Source: Methanospirillum stamsii (lineage in GTDB: Archaea; Halobacteriota; Methanomicrobia; Methanomicrobiales; Methanospirillaceae). Taken from it: a stretch of DNA of 64,000 bases. The DNA is taken from positions 1-64,000 of the forward strand of contig NZ_QGMZ01000004.1 of assembly GCF_003173335.1 (NCBI RefSeq), in the 5' to 3' direction. The translations under genes and the position numbers were made by a program. Below the pieces are notes generated by a model, which worked only from the letters and a program-made list of their open reading frames with translations, had not been told where the DNA came from and did no database searches. This document shows positions 27,330-38,141 of the stretch, one piece after another; within the stretch, counting starts at the first letter, position 1, and every line of letters begins with the position of its first letter.

Positions 27330-29606
27330 ATGAATGCAGGAATACCAGACAATTCAGAATCTATCGGCTATCAGAATCATGAATGCCAGATGATTCTCAA
27401 TGATATACCAACTCCGGTCCTGATTCTCAAAGATGGTAAAATAGTCTATGGAAATCATGCTTCCATAAGGCTGCTAAAGGCGCGGTCGCCTGATGAAATA
27501 TTACATTTAGATCTCTCTGACCTCTCACCTTCAGTGCAACCAGATGGATCCTCTTCCGTTGAGGGTATCCGAACGCTTTTGCAGTCATCGCAAAAGGGAA
27601 AAAATACCAGATTTGAATGGGTTTTTAGGAAATTTGATGGAAAAGAACTATCCGGAAAGGTAACCATCCGATTGTCAGAATATATCGGTACATCCCATGC
27701 CATCGTATCCATTATAGATAATACCGCAGAACATCATGCAATAACCGATATTCTCAATCTTGCTGAAGAGATGAAGAAAGGAAACCTGAGGGCCCGTTTG
27801 TCAGATGAGGGATATTCAGGAGATATGTTCAAACTCATCACCGGTATTAATGAGATGCTGAATGGTATCCTCCATCCCTTCAGAGATATGAACAAGGTGC
27901 TCCAGAAGATTGCTAAAGGTGACATGAGTGCCCATATAGATCAGGTATTCTCTGGAGAGCATGAACGAATCCGGAATGCAGTAAATGGTGTTGCTGATGT
28001 GACCAGGCTGATGCACCAGGAAATTAGCCGGATGGTAGATGCAGCACGGCATGGAAACCTTGCGGTAAGAGGAAAACCGGAATTATTTGACGGTGAATAT
28101 GCCGAAACAATCCGGGGAATTAATGAGATGCTGGATGCAATCCTGGCGCCCATCAGGGCAGGGAATCGTATCCTCCAGAAGATCTCCAAGGGGGATCTCC
28201 GTGAAAGGGTTGAGATAGAATGTGTAGGCGACCATGCAAAAATAAAAGATGCAATTAATGCAGTGCATGACTGGCTAAATGAATTAATCGTTTACGTCAC
28301 CCGGATATCTGAAGGAGATATGACAGCTGATTTCCGGAAAGCATCAGATAATGATCAACTCCATGGCCCTCTGGTCCTCATGCGGGACAATATGAAAAGT
28401 GTTATTTCTGATGTGGATATGCTGGTCACCGCAGGAACTGAAGGAAAACTGATGACCCGGGCAGATCCTTCAAAACATCAGGGAGATTTCAGGACAATCG
28501 TCGAGGGAATTAACACGACTCTTGAAACAGTAGTAAAACCGGTCAGGGAAGCCATGGATGTGTCAAAAGGATATGCCGGATATGACTTCTCCCGGAGAAT
28601 GAACTCATCTGTCACTTATGCAGGTGACTGGAAGGCATTTCAGCAGGCACTGGATGATGTAGGTCATCATGTATCTGATGCGATTTCCCTGATATCACAA
28701 CAGATTGAGATACTAAACCTTGCAACATCCCAGGCTGCATCTAGTATAAGGGATATCTCCTCCGGTTCATCAGTCCTGGCTGAAATAGCCCAGAATGTGA
28801 GCATGAAAGCAGAACAGGGAGGTGATGGTCTGTCGCAGATCCTCCGTGCGATGGAGGATCTCGCAGTAAATGTATCTGATGTATCTTCACGAACCGGTGA
28901 GGTAAACCAGATATCTTCAGACACGAATGCCCTGTCCAAAAAGGGATCATCACTTGCACAGGAAGCCGAACGGGGTATGATGGAGATTACCTCTTCCACG
29001 GATCTTGTTACCGGGCTTGTTCATGAGATCATGGAAGAGATGGGCAAAATCAGTAAAATTTCACTGGTCATTTCAGACATCGCCTCTCAGACAAATCTTC
29101 TGGCATTAAATGCTGCAATCGAAGCAGCCCGTGCAGGTGAAGCCGGACGAGGATTTGCCGTCGTTGCAAGTGAAGTAAAATCACTGGCTCTTGAATCCAG
29201 ACAGTCAGCGGAAAACATTTCCGAGATGATAGAAGGTCTGACAAAAAAGACACAGGCAGCATCTGATACCATGGACAAGAGTGTACTGGTTGTCAGGGAA
29301 GGCGGAAAAGCCCTGAATGAAACCCTCGGAGTATTTAACCAGATTATTGATTCGGTGAACACCGTCAGTCTTCAGATGGATAATGTGGCAAAGGCAGCTG
29401 AACAACAGGCTGCAGCAGTAGAAGAGATTACGGCATCTATTAACGAGGTGAATACCCTGGTATCCGGGACGGCCAAAGATGCAGTTGCTTCTGCAGCAGC
29501 AAGTGAAGAAGCAGCAGCAGCAATTGACCAGATATCTGACCAGATTAATCAGGTCACTGAAGTTACTGAAACACTTGTTGTCGAGACAAAAAAATTTACC
29601 ATATAA
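27330..29606 (+). CDS. Soluble methyl-accepting chemotaxis protein with PAS and repeated HAMP-like domains
   Basis: A 758-residue chemoreceptor with no membrane helix, so it acts in the cytoplasm. A PAS domain comes first (about 18-135, [20 protein letters not shown]). Four to five HAMP-like two-helix units follow (about 140-450), marked by repeats of GINEML...ILHPFRD and ILQKI.KGDM/LR. The signalling domain (about 460-758) has the hairpin tip [20 protein letters not shown], which contacts CheA and CheW. There is no C-terminal CheR-binding pentapeptide. The PAS domain may bind a ligand or cofactor. No che genes are in the window. Confidence 0.93.
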
Positions 29607-30734
29607 TTATTTTTTTCCGGAAATTTCAGCCGAGAATCTGTTTTTTATATCAAGTGGTCCAAGCGGAATATTTGAGACATTCCGGTTTCCCGGTTTTATT
29701 ATCACGTGGATAAATGAAGGCCCTTGGACACGGGCTTTTTTAAAAGCATCAGATAACTCATCAGGAGTATGCACTTTAAAGGTATGATTAAATCCACTGG
29801 CTTTTGCCAGGAGTTCGAGATCCACGGTTTCATATGCAGGTGAACACTGGTTTCCCGTACTTCCATACACCCCGTTGTCAAGACAGATGATTACCAGATT
29901 TTCAGGTGACTCAGCTGCAATTACCGGCATTACGGCCGTTCCAAGAAGACTTCCGTCACCATCAATAACAACAACCTTCCGGTCGGTTCCTAGTGCAATT
30001 CCAAGACCTAAGGGACTTGCCTGGGTGTAAGAACCAAGCATGTAGAAATGAGCCGGATTATCACGGACATGGTATAACTCTTTTGACGGAACACCAATGT
30101 TGGAGACCACAAGTTCATCGGTTAAGAGTGATGCAATGATCGAAATAGCATCTCCCCGCTGCATTACCGGTTCTTTAAAAACTCCATGGTAATTAAGGGT
30201 TATAAGCCGATCACGGGCAGGGAATTCTGAATCATCAGTTATCTCTCTATCTCCTTCCCAGACCTCCGGGGAGATAAGAGCCACATGAGGCCTGTTATTC
30301 ATCCAGGCATCACTGATAACCGAGGTAATCAGGTCGAATTCAGCCGGCTCTCTGATAATTGTACAGGGGATCTGGTATAATTTCAGCAGAACAGGGATTT
30401 TTTCATTAAACGGGATCTGTGCAGGGATACTTTCACGGTAGTATCCACGCCAGCTTGCAAGGATTGGAAGAGGAAGCGAATAGAGATAGGGGAGGGTCAT
30501 CAGGGCGTTGAGTGAATTTCCAAGACCTGAACTCTGCATCTGGAGAACTCCCCTTTTTCCTGCAAGAGAAAGGCCGGATAAGATACCAATACCATCTTCC
30601 TCCCGTGAAATGGTGATATAATGGAACTTTTTTTCAAGGATTTCACACAGATCCTTTGTCCGGTCACAGGGAAGAGAAACGATATATTCTATATTTTCTG
30701 TTGTGAGTATATCCGATACCCTTTTTTCATACAT
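29607..30734 (-). CDS. comDE: Sulfopyruvate decarboxylase, fused alpha and beta subunits
   Basis: A 375-residue thiamine-diphosphate enzyme of coenzyme M synthesis, converting sulfopyruvate to sulfoacetaldehyde. The N-terminal half (about 1-165) matches ComD, with the TPP-activating Glu region ITISREEDGIGILSG and the QSSGLGNSLNAL block. The C-terminal half (about 185-365) matches ComE, with the TPP-binding VVIDGDGSLLGT ... LDNGVYGST. In Methanocaldococcus these are separate proteins; here they are one chain, as in Methanosarcinales and relatives. It is the last gene of a six-gene overlapping operon, sharing 8 nt (ATGTATGA) with cysteate synthase, which supplies the precursor through an aminotransferase. 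Confidence 0.93.
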   Translation of the reverse strand: MYEKRVSDILTTENIEYIVSLPCDRTKDLCEILEKKFHYITISREEDGIGILSGLSLAGKRGVLQMQSSGLGNSLNALMTLPYLYSLPLPILASWRGYYRESIPAQIPFNEKIPVLLKLYQIPCTIIREPAEFDLITSVISDAWMNNRPHVALISPEVWEGDREITDDSEFPARDRLITLNYHGVFKEPVMQRGDAISIIASLLTDELVVSNIGVPSKELYHVRDNPAHFYMLGSYTQASPLGLGIALGTDRKVVVIDGDGSLLGTAVMPVIAAESPENLVIICLDNGVYGSTGNQCSPAYETVDLELLAKASGFNHTFKVHTPDELSDAFKKARVQGPSFIHVIIKPGNRNVSNIPLGPLDIKNRFSAEISGKK

Positions 30735-31992
30735 ATTTTCTCATCCATTGCCTGATTTTTTCTGATACAACATCAAACCCGGTATCCTTTGTGGTCATGA
30801 TATCCGGCTCCTTTACATACCGGTTAAGATCCCGCTTTCCTGCTTCATATCCACCACCGGTGATGTTTAATAAAATGGTTTCATCAGGCCGGATAATACC
30901 TGATTGAACAGATTTGATAAGTCCGGCTACACAGACCGCTGCAGCTGGATCAGGATCAATTCCTTCCTCTGATAAAAAGAGGTTTCCGGCATCTTGTGCA
31001 TCTCCGGAAGATACACCTTCCATCAGGCCATTCGTTGCAACGAGAGTATCAAAAACTCCTCCCGCGATTCCATACGGGGGAGCCCGGTTGGTAAGGACAT
31101 CTGAATAAACCTTTGAGATTGCCCGTTTTGCATCAGGCATATCCTCATCCCTAATGTCACGCCTTTTCTCCTTCCATGCCCTGACCATTGGGATGAACGG
31201 TTCATTCTGGAATAGCATCAGGCGGGGAAGTTCGTTTCCAAATCTGCCATCTCCAATCAACCGGAGTGCTGCTTCATATGCTGCAATCCCTCCGGTCCCA
31301 CTCCCGACCGCCTGCACATACCAGTCAGGAAGTTTGCCAATTGCGAGGGTTCCAGCCAGCATCACAGTTCCCATACCGTCCCTTCTGGCAACATTTTTCG
31401 CACCCCCCTCCGGAAAAATACCCGGAATTTTGCATATTTCATTGCCCAGTATGATGGCATCGGTATAGTCACCGGAGATCGTGATAAGCAGCACATCATG
31501 GGCAGGGACTGTTGTCCATATCCGATTATGTGCTGATTCCGGAACGACAATGATTACCGGCTGTCCGGTCCGGGCAGAGACCTCTGCAAAGGCTCGTCCG
31601 GTATTTCCGGCTGAAGAGACCTGAATTACCCCACCACCAAGATCCACTACTCTTTGCATGGTGGGAAAAGCTTCAAACTCCTTAAATGAGCCACTGACGG
31701 CAAAGGCATTTTTTTCCGGCCAGTAACCAGAGAATACAATCCAGAGATCAGATAGTCCAAGCACCTTTGCAAGATTTGAACACTTGTAACAGACCGGTTC
31801 TGCGTTTGTGGGCAGAGAGCCGGTAACCGGCAGCCAGTCAGAATACCGGAAAATCCCAGGAGATTCCCGGATAGTCAGTTGCCGGGATGAGTATTCTGCC
31901 CTAAGCAGTCCATTGCACCCGTTCGGACAGGAGAGGAGATGGGTGTCCGGAAAAGACTGCCCACATACCGGGCATTTGAGTGTATACGTCAT
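30727..31992 (-). CDS. Cysteate synthase (threonine synthase-like, PLP)
   Basis: A 421-residue PLP enzyme that makes L-cysteate from phosphoserine and sulfite, the first committed step to coenzyme M in this lineage. It looks like a threonine synthase paralogue. An N-terminal zinc-ribbon-like segment has four cysteines (CPVCG and CPNGC). The PLP lysine is expected near SGSFKEFEAFP, with phosphate-binding loops SSAGNTGRAF and VGSGTGGIAAYE. Its place directly before comDE, with an 8-nt overlap, separates it from true threonine synthase. It overlaps the marker 16 gene by 4 nt (ATGA). The following aminotransferase step is not encoded here and is probably done by a general aspartate-type enzyme. 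Confidence 0.92.
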   Translation of the reverse strand: MTYTLKCPVCGQSFPDTHLLSCPNGCNGLLRAEYSSRQLTIRESPGIFRYSDWLPVTGSLPTNAEPVCYKCSNLAKVLGLSDLWIVFSGYWPEKNAFAVSGSFKEFEAFPTMQRVVDLGGGVIQVSSAGNTGRAFAEVSARTGQPVIIVVPESAHNRIWTTVPAHDVLLITISGDYTDAIILGNEICKIPGIFPEGGAKNVARRDGMGTVMLAGTLAIGKLPDWYVQAVGSGTGGIAAYEAALRLIGDGRFGNELPRLMLFQNEPFIPMVRAWKEKRRDIRDEDMPDAKRAISKVYSDVLTNRAPPYGIAGGVFDTLVATNGLMEGVSSGDAQDAGNLFLSEEGIDPDPAAAVCVAGLIKSVQSGIIRPDETILLNITGGGYEAGKRDLNRYVKEPDIMTTKDTGFDVVSEKIRQWMRKYV

Positions 31993-33206
31993 ATTAATAA
32001 TTCTCCATGATTTAGCATGTCCCTCACTTTTCTGCAGAGAATTTCTGCTTTTCTTCTATCAGATTGCCGGAGGACGATAGGAATTGACTGATTTGAAACA
32101 GAGAGAGATCCAAAATTACCTTCGTAAACCAGACCTTCACAGACCCGGACACAGGTTCCACAGACAAAACAGGTATGCTGATTGATCGTTCCATCCTCCC
32201 GGATAGCCTGAGCCGGACATGATTCATGAGCAATGCAGGGAGAACAATGAAGACATTTTTCAGGATGATATCCTATCCGGGAAGCGGTATTGTTCCAGAC
32301 CTGACCATAGGAGGCAGTACCAAATGGCTGGCGGGTTTTAATATCCACAACCGGCAGCATAATTTCGTCATCCAGGACGGAGAGGTTTTGGAGGATCGTC
32401 TTATCTACCAGCGGTATTGCTGTTCCGATGCTGGTAATGCACTCCGGTCCGGCAGAGGTCACAAATCCACCACAAAATTCAGGGCTCATGTCTTTCATAT
32501 CTGCATGAACCGAGAGGTTTGGTTTTTCAGGAGTGCTCCGGGTCCCGGTACCGATTATCCTGCCACTCACCCCGTTTACCACAACCGGATCTCCGGGGGA
32601 GTGAAATCTCAATGAAGGATCATTCTCAAGCGGATTTATCTCTCCACATCCGGATACCGTAACCTCTGTAGCCGGACCTTCAAGGGGAAGGACAGAAAAA
32701 ATTGTTGATATGGATTCTGTTCCCCGGTTCGTTATTGCAGAGTAGTTTTTGAATGCACTCCGGGTTGTAAATAACCGTGCAAAGGGAAGATCGCCAAGAG
32801 TAATATCTGCGTCATAATGCCTTCCTTCAGCGGATACCTCTACATGAATGGGTTTTCCTGCGATAAGGTCATGAAAAAGGTGACCACCTCCGTATCGCTC
32901 ATTGGCATGGGCAGTTCCGAAAACCATCAGATCTACCAATCCAAGCCGCTCATTCGGACAAGGACCTGGAATTGCCGGAACACCCTGAAGAGTTACTGTT
33001 TCTGCCCGGGAAAATGTTCCGGGAGGGGCGACTGGAACCGAAAGGACAGCATAGGTGCCTGACATGACACCGCAGGTGCCACAGGTGACTACATCAACAT
33101 CAGTTATATCATCCTCATGTGAAATCCTTTTTTTTAATTCAGATGCCGTGAGGATTACTGCATCTCCGACTTTTATCCGGGCACGAATTTCTTCCAATTT
33201 TCTCAT
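31989..33206 (-). CDS. mmp16: Methanogenesis marker 16 metalloprotein (DUF39 plus ferredoxin domain)
   Basis: A 405-residue protein of the COG1900/DUF39 family with a C-terminal ferredoxin domain. The DUF39 part (about 1-310) has the conserved VVTCGTCGVMSGTYAVL near residues 38-55 and later Cys in VSGCGEIN and EFCGGF. The ferredoxin part (about 320-375) has two cluster motifs: CLHCSPCIAHESCP and CFVCGTCVRVC. Related DUF39 proteins in Methanosarcina make homocysteine from aspartate semialdehyde by a persulfide. Position between coenzyme M genes suggests that this one adds sulfur to sulfoacetaldehyde, the final step; that is an inference. It overlaps both neighbours by 4 nt. Confidence 0.92.
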   Translation of the reverse strand: MRKLEEIRARIKVGDAVILTASELKKRISHEDDITDVDVVTCGTCGVMSGTYAVLSVPVAPPGTFSRAETVTLQGVPAIPGPCPNERLGLVDLMVFGTAHANERYGGGHLFHDLIAGKPIHVEVSAEGRHYDADITLGDLPFARLFTTRSAFKNYSAITNRGTESISTIFSVLPLEGPATEVTVSGCGEINPLENDPSLRFHSPGDPVVVNGVSGRIIGTGTRSTPEKPNLSVHADMKDMSPEFCGGFVTSAGPECITSIGTAIPLVDKTILQNLSVLDDEIMLPVVDIKTRQPFGTASYGQVWNNTASRIGYHPEKCLHCSPCIAHESCPAQAIREDGTINQHTCFVCGTCVRVCEGLVYEGNFGSLSVSNQSIPIVLRQSDRRKAEILCRKVRDMLNHGELLI

Positions 33207-33835
33207 AGTATCCTGATATCCTCTACTCGTACCTGCAGCCCTTCTTTCCTTTTAAAAATCTGGTTGACTACTCCGGTATGACCAAGGTTCATCATACAAT
33301 ATGCCGGAAGAAACCTCATTCTTTTTCCGAAAACCGGTTCATCCCTGACGGTCTGTGTGAGACCCTCAAACCCGATGATATGATATGCTTCAAGGTCTTT
33401 GACTTCTTTTCCCCGTGAAAATAACGGACCTACAACATGAGTCGTGATAACTCCGGATATCCGGCTGGCCGATAAAACTCTGAGAACATGCTGAACCGGA
33501 CATCCGGCACCCATCGGCCTTCCGGTGAGGATATCACCCGGGCAAATATTCCATCGTTCAACTAAGTCCGGCCTGAAGGGAAGAAGAATTTTTCTTGCCG
33601 AACACTCTCCCGGAAGTGGATGAAGGATAAAATCAAAGGGGAGTCCCAGAATGTCTTCTGTTTCAGGATTATCCTTTTCGTCAGAAAAACAGGTGGTCTT
33701 TTTGGATGATTCGGTATAAAATGGACATTCTTCCTTCTTCCGGGAACCATTCCAGACAACTGAGAGGAATTCCTTACAGGTTCCATACCCGCAGGCACCA
33801 CAGTTTCTCCCCGGAGGAGTCCAGTTCTCTTCCAT
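33203..33835 (-). CDS. Fe-S protein of unknown function in coenzyme M operon
   Basis: A 210-residue cytoplasmic protein. The N-terminus (about 5-45) is a four-cysteine cluster domain, NCGACGYGTCKEF followed by ECPFY, of the kind in corrinoid Fe-S proteins and related reductases. A linker leads to a beta-rich domain (about 65-210) with a possible further Cys site (GAGCPVQHVLRVL) and AYCMMNLGHTG. I recognise the cluster motif but not an assigned function. It probably passes electrons or holds a cluster for the marker 16 protein, whose gene it overlaps by 4 nt. Its ATG overlaps the GTPase stop as TGATG, with AGAGGAG 5-11 nt before. Confidence 0.85.
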   Translation of the reverse strand: MEENWTPPGRNCGACGYGTCKEFLSVVWNGSRKKEECPFYTESSKKTTCFSDEKDNPETEDILGLPFDFILHPLPGECSARKILLPFRPDLVERWNICPGDILTGRPMGAGCPVQHVLRVLSASRISGVITTHVVGPLFSRGKEVKDLEAYHIIGFEGLTQTVRDEPVFGKRMRFLPAYCMMNLGHTGVVNQIFKRKEGLQVRVEDIRIL

Positions 33836-34539
33836 CAGTCTCCTCTGAACATGAGTTCATCACCGTCAAGCTGCCGGAGAACTCCGGAATGATTCTTCCA
33901 TCCGATATTTTTCTTCCCGATACAGACGGTGCAGACTCCAAGAGGGGGAATGCCCCGGAGAGTTATTATGGATGGATCAGTAATGTCAGCGGCATTTTCT
34001 ATTGCCCGGGTAAGATACCGCATCCCGGTTCCCTGCACGGCGTTGGTCTCGACGATATCTATGTCACTTCGGATACCCCGGATTTTCTCACGGAAGACCT
34101 CTTTTTCAGCCTGTGATACAAGGTCAATCCGGGTAACCACGGCAATATCGGCAAGAGCTATCATCGGTGCCATTTTTGCCGGAGACTGGATGCCGGATAT
34201 GGCAGATAATACCACGATTCCAAATGACTGGGTAGTATACGGGGTACACCGCAGGCATAAACCGGCACTCTCAACAATCAGCATATCTGCCCTCTCATTC
34301 ATTGCCCAGCTGATTGCCTCATCCAGGATCATGATACCTGCATGGTCCGGACAGAGATCACCGGAATAAATTTTCCTGGATGGAATATGAAATTCTTCCC
34401 TGATCTCTTCATCCTCGGTTGCACAGACAACATCTATCTTAAGATAGGCTGCCTTGAGATCTGTGAGAGATCGAATAATCTGTTTTGCAACTGCAGTTTT
34501 TCCTGCCGAGGGAGGGCCTGCAATTATGATAAGTTTCAT
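33835..34539 (-). CDS. P-loop GTPase/ATPase, HypB/UreG-like, in coenzyme M operon
   Basis: A 234-residue SIMIBI-class P-loop protein. Walker A is AGPPSAGKTAVAKQII at residues 6-21. A second strand reads AAYLKIDVVCAT, the switch region is ADMLIVESAGLCLRCTPYTT, and a guanine-specificity-like motif is VVTRIDLVSQ (TRID for NKxD). These features match HypB, UreG and CooC-type maturation factors. Two cysteine pairs, CLRC and CTVC near the C-terminus, could bind a metal or Fe-S cluster. Such proteins drive metal or cluster insertion, which fits a role in maturing the neighbouring marker 16 protein. It shares one base with both adjacent genes. Confidence 0.87.
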   Translation of the reverse strand: MKLIIIAGPPSAGKTAVAKQIIRSLTDLKAAYLKIDVVCATEDEEIREEFHIPSRKIYSGDLCPDHAGIMILDEAISWAMNERADMLIVESAGLCLRCTPYTTQSFGIVVLSAISGIQSPAKMAPMIALADIAVVTRIDLVSQAEKEVFREKIRGIRSDIDIVETNAVQGTGMRYLTRAIENAADITDPSIITLRGIPPLGVCTVCIGKKNIGWKNHSGVLRQLDGDELMFRGD

Positions 34540-35333
34540 CAGTATGATACCGGCAGAGGGGAAGTGATAATTTCTCCGGCCCGGATCATCTCTCTCATCT
34601 GGCCGATAATACCATCCATATGAAGCATCTGGCGTATTGCGTGCTCTTCTGCTCCATCCGGTTCAATTACCTTCGCAACTGCCCCATCCTGCATAACTAT
34701 CCTCCTTTCCGAGAGGAGTGAGACGAGAGGATCGTGGGTTACGAACAGGAGGGCTTTTTGGTGCTGCCGGAGGACCTGAATTACCTTTTCCTTAAATATT
34801 CCTGCATTTTCCACCTCATCCAGAAGAATTATCGGGGTGTTGGAGATGAGTATGGCATCGGCTACCATCAGGGACCGTGTCTGACCACCGGAAAGACTGG
34901 TCATCCGGACATGCCCTGCGATTGGTTCACCGGTAAACTGGTTTGCAAGCAGGATGGTCTCATTGATACATGAATCTTTCGTATATCCCCGGGATGTAAG
35001 GTGCATTAAGAGAAAATCCGCAACGGTCAGATCGCACAGACACCGGGTGTTTTGAGTAATAAGTGCTACGGGTTTTGCTGCAGGATCCCGGACATATGCT
35101 TCCGGAGGTAGAACTCCATTTACCAGGACCTGGCGTCCGGTGATGGTATCCCGGTTTGCAAATATCTCAATATCATTGATGAATGCACTTTTCCCTGAAC
35201 CGGTAGGGCCGACTATCGAAAGAGTATCACCCGGCCGGATGGTGATCTCATCAAAGGCCTCTTTCTCTCCCTGGCGGTTTTTCCCCGGAAGAATCGTTAT
35301 CTCCCTGATATCTTCCCCTGTCATGCTTGTCAA
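34539..35333 (-). CDS. ABC-type ATPase, soluble, first gene of coenzyme M operon
   Basis: A 264-residue ABC ATPase without membrane partner genes nearby. Walker A is VGPTGSGKSAFI (about 40-51), the Q-loop is LITQNTRCLCDLTVADFL, the signature is SLSGGQTRSLMVADAIL, Walker B is TPIILLDEVENAG and the switch His is in LFVTHDPLVSLL. The Q-loop carries a CxC pair, which is unusual. The C-terminal 40 residues (EEHAIRQMLHMDGIIGQMRE) are a helical extension. Lack of a permease gene and of membrane segments suggests a soluble energy-coupling role, like component A2 in methyl-CoM reductase activation, though it is shorter and single. It overlaps the GTPase gene by one base (TGATG). Confidence 0.87.
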   Translation of the reverse strand: MTSMTGEDIREITILPGKNRQGEKEAFDEITIRPGDTLSIVGPTGSGKSAFINDIEIFANRDTITGRQVLVNGVLPPEAYVRDPAAKPVALITQNTRCLCDLTVADFLLMHLTSRGYTKDSCINETILLANQFTGEPIAGHVRMTSLSGGQTRSLMVADAILISNTPIILLDEVENAGIFKEKVIQVLRQHQKALLFVTHDPLVSLLSERRIVMQDGAVAKVIEPDGAEEHAIRQMLHMDGIIGQMREMIRAGEIITSPLPVSY

Positions 35334-36082
35334 AGTTATTAGGGAAGGTGAGTATATGATACTATCTTAAAATCCTAAATTTAAAGGCTTATTGGGTTAA
35401 ACTTTTACAAATAATTGATACATTAATGCAAATGAATTATCTTTATGTATTGTATTCATTCAAATCAGATTAATTGTTCATCACACTCATACAGGCAAAT
35501 TCTTATTTTTGGTTTAAGAACAGACAAAGTACAAAAAGAAAACTACTCTCTCAAATTTGGCATCAGCATCAAAAATGGCTATTCGTTTGTCTTCACTGGA
35601 AGGCCGCTATGCCCCGATCTTTTTTCAGTCGATACTTTATATGTATCACATGAATGGAGGAATAAAACCCCTTTATAAAAACGATTATTAAGCAGATATT
35701 GTCAAAATATCGAAAAATTGAGGGTTTCATATTTTGCATTTATATGGTCTATGAAAAATTAGGTTTTTTCAAGAAATAACGGCATATTGGGCATATTTAT
35801 GGAGGAAAAAGACTTGGAATTTCATCATTTAATTATATTAGTTTATTCATATAAAGAATACATATGATGGATTTGGAGAGATTTCTTTCTACCGGGTCAT
35901 GATCCTTTTGTTTTTTCTACTGATTCAAAATAGAGCACATCAAATGACTTTTCCTCTGTTTAAAAAAAAATACCTGAAATGCTTCAACAGGTAATAACTA
36001 CTATGATGCCTATAGTGGACTCAATAAACACAATAGTTCACAATAATCTATAGAACATAATCTGATGTACCTTCCCGGAGTA

Positions 36083-36191: not shown

Positions 36192-38141
36192 GTGATATCC
36201 GGAATCCATAAAACCCTGAAAAATTGCCGGAAGCGAAAGCCACTTGAAGATATTATTCATATCTTGTGGTTTGCCTGTGCCATATCATCCATAATCGGGA
36301 TTTTTTTTATCCTGGTGTTTCTTCTGTACGATGCCGTGCCGGCATTTTTGGACATTGGCCTGATCCCATTTCTGACCGGAGACAGATGGGACCCGGGGAG
36401 TGCTATTCCAAAATACGGCCTTGTGCCCCTCATTGTGGGAACATTATTGGTTACCCTTGGAGCGATGGTGTTTGCCGTACCGTTTGGATTAGCCTGTGCC
36501 ATATTTATCGCAGAACTTGCATCTCCGAAGATGAGGAATATCTTAAAACCAGCCGTGGAACTCCTGGCTGGTATCCCTTCTGTGGTTTATGGATTTTTCG
36601 GACTTATTATTCTCGTAAAAGCACTTCAGGATTTTTTGGATGTCCCTAGTGGAGAATCAGTACTTGCAGGCTCTATACTTCTTGGAATCATGGCACTTCC
36701 AACAATTATCAGCGTTTCAGAAGATGCCATCAGTTCAGTCCCGAAGTACCTGAAAGAAGGATCCCTGGCGCTTGGAGCAACACACTGGCAGACGATATCC
36801 CGGGTAATAATCCCTGCAGCCCTCTCAGGTATTACCGCAGCGGTAATTCTTGGAATAGGAAGAGCAGTTGGTGAGACAATGGCGGTCATCATGGTAACAG
36901 GAAATGCCGCCATAATTCCTGAACCCCTGTGGAATATTCTCTCACCGGTAAGAACACTGACTGGAACACTTGGCATTGAAATGGGTGAGGTTGCAGTCGG
37001 ATCTCTACATTACCATGCCCTGTTCGGAGTAGCAGTCGTTCTGCTTTTTATTACTCTGCTCATCAATCTTACCGCTCTATCAGTAATGAAAAGACTGAAT
37101 AGTTCGCAGATGGGAGGAAGCAAAAAGAAAGGCATACTTTCCAGGGTGAAAATGCCGGATCAGCTCACCGGAATCAGACAATACATTCCTGCAGGCCTTG
37201 GATTATTGCTCATTCTCTTCCTCATCCTGGCCGGATTATGGCAGGGAGCATGCCTCATTGCTCTTGTTTGCAGTATTACATGGGCAGTAAACCGATACCT
37301 CGCCAGGCAGAATGTTCAGAGGATATGGTTTGCAATTATCACGCTCATGATGACCATAGTCACTTTAATTCTGATCTTTATCCTCTATGACATCTTCTCA
37401 AACGGACTTCCGTATGTAACACCGGATTTCCTTACCGGGACTCCAAAAAACCTCGGTCGTGCCGGAGGAATTTTTCCGGCCATTGTGGGAACATTCCTCC
37501 TTGTTACCGGTTCAATAGTAATTGCCCTGCCTCTTGGTATCGGGGCCGCAATTTACCTGGTTGAATACACCAGTGAAAATTTTCTGACCCGGATAATAAG
37601 GACCGCTACTGATTTGCTAAATGGAACACCATCCATTGTATTCGGTCTTTTCGGATTTACATTCCTGGTACTTTATCTGGGATTTGGGATCTCACTTATT
37701 GCAGGGATGATAACCCTGACCCTTATGGTCCTCCCTACCGTCATACGGACAACGGAGGAAGCACTTCGAAGTGTTCCGGACAGTCTTCGCGAAGGATCAT
37801 ATGCCCTTGGAGCGACCAGGTGGCAGACAATAAAACGGGTAGTACTTCCTCCCTCAGTTCCCGGGATTATTACCGGGGCAATCCTCTCTATCGGAAGAGC
37901 GGCCGGAGAGACTGCACCGATTATGTTTACTGCGGTTGTATTCATGCAAAGACGTCTTCCTGACTCTCTGCTTGACCCGGTGATGGCTCTTCCCTATCAC
38001 CTCTTCATACTGGCAACAAATGTTCCGGGTGCAAGAAACAACCAATATGCTACGGCAGTGGTCCTGTTGGTCCTAGTAATAATGATTTATGGTGTTGCAA
38101 TCATGATTCGGCATCATTACGATAAAAAAGTCAGGTGGTAA
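36192..38141 (+). CDS. pstCA: Phosphate ABC transporter permease, PstC-PstA fusion
   Basis: A 649-residue inner-membrane protein. Residues about 1-310 are PstC-like and about 350-649 PstA-like, each with about six membrane helices. Each half has a PstB-docking EAA loop: [20 protein letters not shown] in the first and [20 protein letters not shown] in the second. Together they form the phosphate channel. In most organisms these are two proteins; the fusion gives a fixed pair. Translation starts at GTG 36192 after GAGGAG (36176-36181). The stop overlaps the region where pstB begins, so the genes are coupled. The operon continues with pstB and phoU. Confidence 0.93.

Follow-up and report, generated by a model that had tools for sequence, protein, structure and literature searches.

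A coenzyme M operon of Methanospirillum stamsii headed by a widespread ATPase, GTPase and Fe-S protein cassette with a possible role in sulfur mobilisation

Coenzyme M is required for biological methane production. The window analysed here, a 64,000-nt stretch of Methanospirillum stamsii (contig NZ_QGMZ01000004.1, positions 1-64,000, forward strand), contains a coenzyme M operon in which the genes for three coenzyme M enzymes are preceded by genes for an ABC ATPase, a metal-type GTPase and an iron-sulfur (Fe-S) protein, referred to below as the trio. The list of open reading frames (ORFs) places the six overlapping minus-strand genes at 29607-35333, where a preliminary description of this DNA had put them, and the successive overlaps (1, 1, 4, 4 and 8 nt) are exactly those given there. 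In operon order from the ATPase, the junctions read TGATG, TGATG, ATGA, ATGA and ATGTATGA. Overlaps recur across related loci: the ATPase and GTPase genes overlap by 4 nt in 58 of 68 loci, the genes for the Fe-S protein and methanogenesis marker 16 metalloprotein (MMP16) by 4 nt in 32 of 38, and those for cysteate synthase and ComDE overlap in 38 of 40; the arrangement is therefore not due to chance. The ATPase probably starts at ATG 35324 and not at the TTG of the longer ORF, because its relatives align from there.

Table 1. Features of the coenzyme M operon, in operon order, and of the DNA upstream of it.
Feature	Position in window	Strand	Remarks
AT-rich stretch upstream of operon, presumed promoter region	35325..35560	-	
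ABC ATPase, first trio gene	34539..35324	-	longer ORF to TTG 35333; PF00005
HypB/UreG-like metal GTPase, trio	33835..34539	-	PF02492 (CobW/HypB/UreG)
COG2000-type Fe-S protein, trio	33203..33835	-	PF04060
Methanogenesis marker 16 metalloprotein (MMP16/ComF, coenzyme M synthase)	31989..33206	-	TIGR03287; function from PMC12068725
Cysteate synthase (sulfite + phosphoserine -> cysteate)	30727..31992	-	TIGR03844
ComDE, fused sulfopyruvate decarboxylase	29607..30734	-	TIGR03845 + TIGR03846

The identities of the three coenzyme M enzymes are firm. Cysteate synthase scores 640 bits against its family model (cut-off 325) and marker 16 scores 573 (cut-off 364); ComDE exceeds the cut-offs of both the alpha (TIGR03845, 204.9 bits) and the beta (TIGR03846, 248.7 bits) sulfopyruvate decarboxylase models. 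These matches bear out the earlier assignment of the operon to coenzyme M synthesis. In the window MMP16, C83 and C187 correspond to the conserved Cys95 and Cys202 of the family, and two ferredoxin-type Cys quartets (eight Cys) lie at 318-356. The main coenzyme M synthase of Methanosarcina is MMP16, and conversion of sulfoacetaldehyde to coenzyme M has been shown for MMP16 homologues (PMC12068725 and work cited there). The sulfoacetaldehyde-thiolating role proposed for marker 16 in the preliminary description had thus already been demonstrated genetically by others; marker 16 mutants were also expected to need added coenzyme M, but with sulfide supplied they grow without it (PMC12068725). By analogy with these homologues, the window MMP16 is the predicted sulfoacetaldehyde-thiolating enzyme: cysteate synthase and ComDE would make sulfoacetaldehyde, using an aminotransferase encoded elsewhere, and MMP16/ComF would convert the aldehyde of this compound to a thiol. 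L-aspartate semialdehyde sulfurtransferase (COG1900a, MA1821-MA1822) belongs to the same HcyBio/COG1900 family and shares this aldehyde-to-thiol chemistry; MMP16 differs in carrying its ferredoxin domain within the same chain and in the positions of its conserved Cys (PMC12068725). A separate member of the family is encoded on contig C5 of the M. stamsii genome (475 bits). The operon is a standard class II coenzyme M operon of a kind already described; the published operon likewise has cysteate synthase, ComDE and MMP16, and an ATPase, a Ni-type GTPase and a COG2000 Fe-S protein are colocalised with it (PMC12068725).

The trio proteins match general families only (Table 1). The ATPase is a soluble ABC type without a membrane partner and has Walker A (GPTGSGK), a Q-loop, LSGGQ, Walker B (LLDEVENAG) and THDP. 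The GTPase has the features of the HypB/UreG superfamily (a P-loop, an (N/T)KxD motif, which reads TRxD in the window protein, and a Cys/His metal motif), and its motifs CPDH (63-66), ESAGLCxRC (90-98) and a C-terminal CxxC (203-206) are invariant. Profile searches retrieve HypB and UreG as its nearest solved relatives, and it resembles these nickel GTPases in its P-loop and metal-binding CPDH and CxxC motifs. However, it falls far under the cut-offs of both families (TIGR00073 for HypB, 53 versus 121 bits; TIGR00101 for UreG, 28 versus 204 bits), lacks a hydrogenase or urease context and has its own C-terminal CxxC. The Fe-S protein begins with a [4Fe-4S] domain (C12, C15, C20, C37) like that of the corrinoid iron-sulfur protein (CFeSP), which it has in common with the CFeSP gamma subunit and RnfB (PF04060); unlike these, it ends in an unrelated all-beta domain with invariant C112, H116, C180 and H186. 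Its AlphaFold model has a mean pLDDT of 88.7, with the beta domain above 90. Over 38 N-terminal residues the model fits the CFeSP large subunit (9fzy_F) at 1.5 A with a Foldseek probability of 0.99, a likeness to CFeSP gamma that is also found by sequence profile; Foldseek finds no relative of the C-terminal domain in the PDB. Colocalisation of the trio with coenzyme M genes has already been published: a figure legend notes the frequent presence, with these genes, of an ATPase, a Ni2+-binding GTPase and a COG2000 Fe-S protein, whose role it calls unknown (PMC12068725, Figure 2). No further papers on the trio were found in the open-access literature, and its earlier characterisation as little described was fair.

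The Fe-S protein, MMP16, GTPase, ATPase and ComE were searched for in 296 genomes of the phylum, and the trio loci were then fetched. The six-gene order is conserved, which the preliminary description had proposed to check: it occurs in five families of the order, at 34 loci; among named records, Methanomassiliicoccales (L138, L140) and Methanimicrococcus (L139) also have it. Other arrangements occur. In Methanosarcinaceae (family f8) the order is cysteate synthase-ATPase-GTPase-FeS-ComD-ComE and MMP16 is encoded on the opposite strand; loci of family f21 retain cysteate synthase-ATPase-GTPase-FeS. Within the order, the trio follows ComE (42 genomes with both, one with the trio only, none with ComE only, 19 with neither; p 5e-15) more closely than MMP16 (38, five, one and 18, respectively). 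MMP16 is present in 78 of the 85 trio genomes of the phylum sample; the seven without it are mostly of a Methanoregula-like genus, and G038, G175 and G234 also have a trio but no MMP16. This genus (g4) is Methanoregula by the GTPase tree. Its operon reads ATPase-GTPase-FeS-cysteate synthase-ComDE (L033, L035, L051, L089; named records L129, L130, L133), and no MMP16 above the cut-off was found elsewhere in the g4 genomes searched. Another enzyme must therefore carry out the last step of coenzyme M synthesis in these genomes, which constitute a natural experiment on that step. In one Methanoculleus-like genome (G003; L193, 7879-9279), a frameshifted and broken ATPase gene, half of the GTPase gene and the end of ComDE are left and the rest is gone, which indicates that the set decays together. 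Two public metagenome-assembled genomes (MAGs), labelled 'Bacilli' (L137) and 'Nanohalarchaeota' (L128), were treated as mis-binned; their contigs probably are, because they carry archaeal com genes. As a separate observation, genome G220 has an intact MMP16 gene (L194, 7084-8289) and no other com or trio gene in genome searches.

Archaeal trio loci without MMP16 have NifS, NifU, ThiF, MoaD/SAMP, MoaE, FdhD, LarE and an SsuA-family protein as neighbours (LarE as judged from the L038 sequence and its close cluster mates only, cluster c15 being a mixture of LarE-like and GMP-synthase-like proteins). The SsuA-family protein, an aliphatic sulfonate binding type with no evident signal peptide, is found beside such loci in several families (L033, 6101-7042, and homologues). 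At archaeal locus L049 a cysteine desulfurase accompanies the cassette; a 63-bit match there to L-aspartate semialdehyde sulfurtransferase was rejected, as the protein is a MetX-CBS fusion matched via its CBS domains.

The trio is not confined to archaea. GTDB genomes were scanned with the GTPase alignment, the Fe-S alignment being too variable. Among the best 80 of at least 578 matches, full-length GTPase relatives with 51-61% identity are spread over at least eight phyla of bacteria: Bacillota (Heliobacterium, Heliophilum, Pelotomaculum), Bacteroidota, Omnitrophota, Pseudomonadota (Gallionellaceae), Acidobacteriota, Thermodesulfobacteriota, Verrucomicrobiota, Bdellovibrionota and Patescibacteria, though many matches are MAGs and some placements may be wrong. 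In nearly all bacterial loci the ATPase gene precedes and the Fe-S gene follows that of the GTPase. The CPDH, ESAGLCxRC and CxxC residues are conserved in 49 GTPases; the cluster Cys, C112, H116, C180 and H186 are conserved in 46 Fe-S proteins. An enzyme of the COG1900 family (PF01837) is found in only 10 of 39 bacterial cassette genomes; some of the 29 without one are MAGs that are not complete, but it is also missing from the genomes of the Heliobacterium chlorum and Heliophilum strains. Of 49 bacterial loci, 21 have a class-V cysteine desulfurase with the cassette, usually between the GTPase and Fe-S genes (Bacteroidota, Omnitrophota, Acidobacteriota, Thermodesulfobacteriota), whereas about 0.07 such cases would be expected by chance (108 class-V aminotransferase genes per 74.9 Mb, assuming about 1 kb per gene). 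Other neighbours include O-acetylhomoserine sulfhydrylase, cystathionine synthases and lyases, CysK with a hexapeptide transferase beside it, amino-acid permeases and Rrf2 regulators. Because of very long branches near its root, the GTPase tree does not reveal which way transfer between methanogens and bacteria went.

The data establish the gene content, order and motif conservation of the trio and its independence of MMP16 and of COG1900 enzymes; it is not restricted to genomes that have either. Linkage of the cassette to sulfur-transfer genes recurs in unrelated lineages. We consider the chances evenly balanced that the trio is an independent, widely distributed sulfur-mobilising module joined to the front of a standard class II coenzyme M operon. 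Such a cassette is more likely than a set that maintains MMP16, because the trio and MMP16 are separable, the cassette stands alone in bacteria and many of its neighbours are sulfur genes. We infer that the cassette carries sulfur, and likewise each step of the following scheme. The ABC ATPase and HypB-like GTPase would power changes of conformation, or the loading of metal, in the Fe-S protein, and the CFeSP-like cluster and C-terminal Cys/His residues of that protein would handle metal-bound sulfur species; sulfur would pass to cysteate synthase and possibly MMP16 here, and to enzymes of cysteine and methionine metabolism in bacteria.

Several points weigh against a sulfur-mobilising cassette. 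Evidence for sulfur handling is gene proximity throughout, and about half of the bacterial loci have no sulfur gene nearby. Loci within a phylum, the desulfurase loci included, are not independent of each other. LarE, FdhD, MoaE and a HypB-type GTPase are equally compatible with metal-cofactor assembly. Neither a structure of the trio nor biochemical work on it was found. ComE and MMP16 occur without the trio in 52 genomes, including six of a Methanosarcina-like genus (g69), and coenzyme M can therefore evidently be made without it. Locus L040 of this genus has MMP16, ComDE, cysteate synthase and a 154-residue hypothetical protein; this M. acetivorans-type locus matches the gene list of MA3296-MA3299 (PMC12713407) and lacks the trio, whereas all six genes overlap in the window.

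The strongest rival is metal-cofactor insertion, in which the ATPase would drive the GTPase and Fe-S protein to load a target enzyme with Ni, Co or Fe, in the manner of HypB, UreG and CooC; the target being an Fe-S or sulfur enzyme, sulfur genes would be found close by. The solved structures nearest to the GTPase fit this explanation, as do its CPDH motif, which resembles the CPH of UreG and is joined by ESAGLCxRC, the CFeSP gamma domain of the Fe-S protein, and a paralogous GTPase-ATPase pair found near DUF364/DUF4213 heavy-metal, MtrH and metal-uptake-like genes. However, no one metalloenzyme goes with the cassette across methanogens and bacteria, and many neighbours are sulfur-carbon enzymes without a metal requirement. 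Metal insertion is possible but on balance rather unlikely. The M. stamsii genome itself has two copies of the paralogous pair, about 40% identical (G000:C40, 12171-18841; L044, 7170-13841), which adjoin cytosolic solute-binding-like proteins and a metal-uptake-like binding protein; in other genomes, such pairs lie near MtrH and DUF364/DUF4213 and DUF1858 domains.

A narrower proposal is that the trio serves sulfonate synthesis by producing or supplying sulfite or an equivalent metal-bound sulfur species. Sulfite is a substrate of both cysteate synthase and ComA, and methanogens are not known to have a sulfite source; if true, the proposal would bear on the origin of sulfite for both enzymes in sulfide-grown methanogens. 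It arises because these enzymes stand upstream of the trio: cysteate synthase directly so in Methanosarcinaceae, and ComA directly in bacterial locus L143 (6282-7067) and one gene away in L147 (5575-6387). Bacterial ComA is also beside or near the cassette in L149 (14595-15398). Co-occurrence with ComA is suggestive only: ComA is present in 10 of 12 Bacillota trio genomes versus 9 of 69 genomes of the class to which Heliobacterium belongs, with kinship not controlled, and in one Bacteroidota order in 5 of 7 trio genomes versus 37 of 131 (p 0.03; p 0.15, not significant, without two genomes chosen beforehand). Production or delivery of sulfite is an unlikely function of the trio.

The preliminary description held that the trio keeps marker 16 active, which would mean maturing or re-reducing it. 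The trio adjoins MMP16 in the 34 six-gene operons and in four-gene loci of trio and MMP16 (L039, L092), and most trio genomes (78 of 85) have MMP16. Against this model stand the seven trio genomes without MMP16, the 52 genomes with ComE and MMP16 but no trio, the bacterial cassettes without COG1900 enzymes (29 of 39) and the Methanosarcinaceae, where cysteate synthase and ComDE flank the trio and MMP16 is encoded on the opposite strand. The model is therefore unsupported, and we regard it as distinctly improbable. A role specific to COG1900 enzymes, considered after MMP16, was rejected on the same 29 genomes. That the trio is a bystander which has only a promoter in common with the com genes would fit its absence from many coenzyme M producers and its presence apart from com genes in bacteria and certain archaea. 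This is very improbable, however: the trio is com-adjacent in two deep GTPase clades of differing gene orders and is lost or decays along with com genes (the G003 remnant).

What is new is the reassignment of the trio genes to a separate cassette of archaea and at least eight bacterial phyla. The question shifts from what helps marker 16 to the role of a common ATP- and GTP-driven Fe-S cassette in sulfur metabolism, which can be approached not only in methanogens but also in a bacterium that can be cultured, for example Heliobacterium chlorum. The cassette resembles SUF in having a soluble ABC ATPase (SufC in SUF) beside a cysteine desulfurase (SufS); it differs in that no SufB or SufD is seen alongside, a GTPase and a CFeSP-like protein standing in their place, and SufC is not within the best 25 family matches of the window ATPase.

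A divergent helix-turn-helix regulator with a C-terminal domain of unknown family (c6; L033, 7046-7534, and homologues) precedes the operon in 11 genera and is a candidate coenzyme M regulator. Unlike many of its relatives, the window operon has no divergent regulator gene upstream. A fused phosphate-type ABC permease is encoded upstream of the operon (36192-38141, as read from the sequence). At the other end, a methyl-accepting chemotaxis-type protein, likewise recognised by reading its sequence, is encoded on the other strand (27330-29606) and terminates a single base from where ComDE ends.

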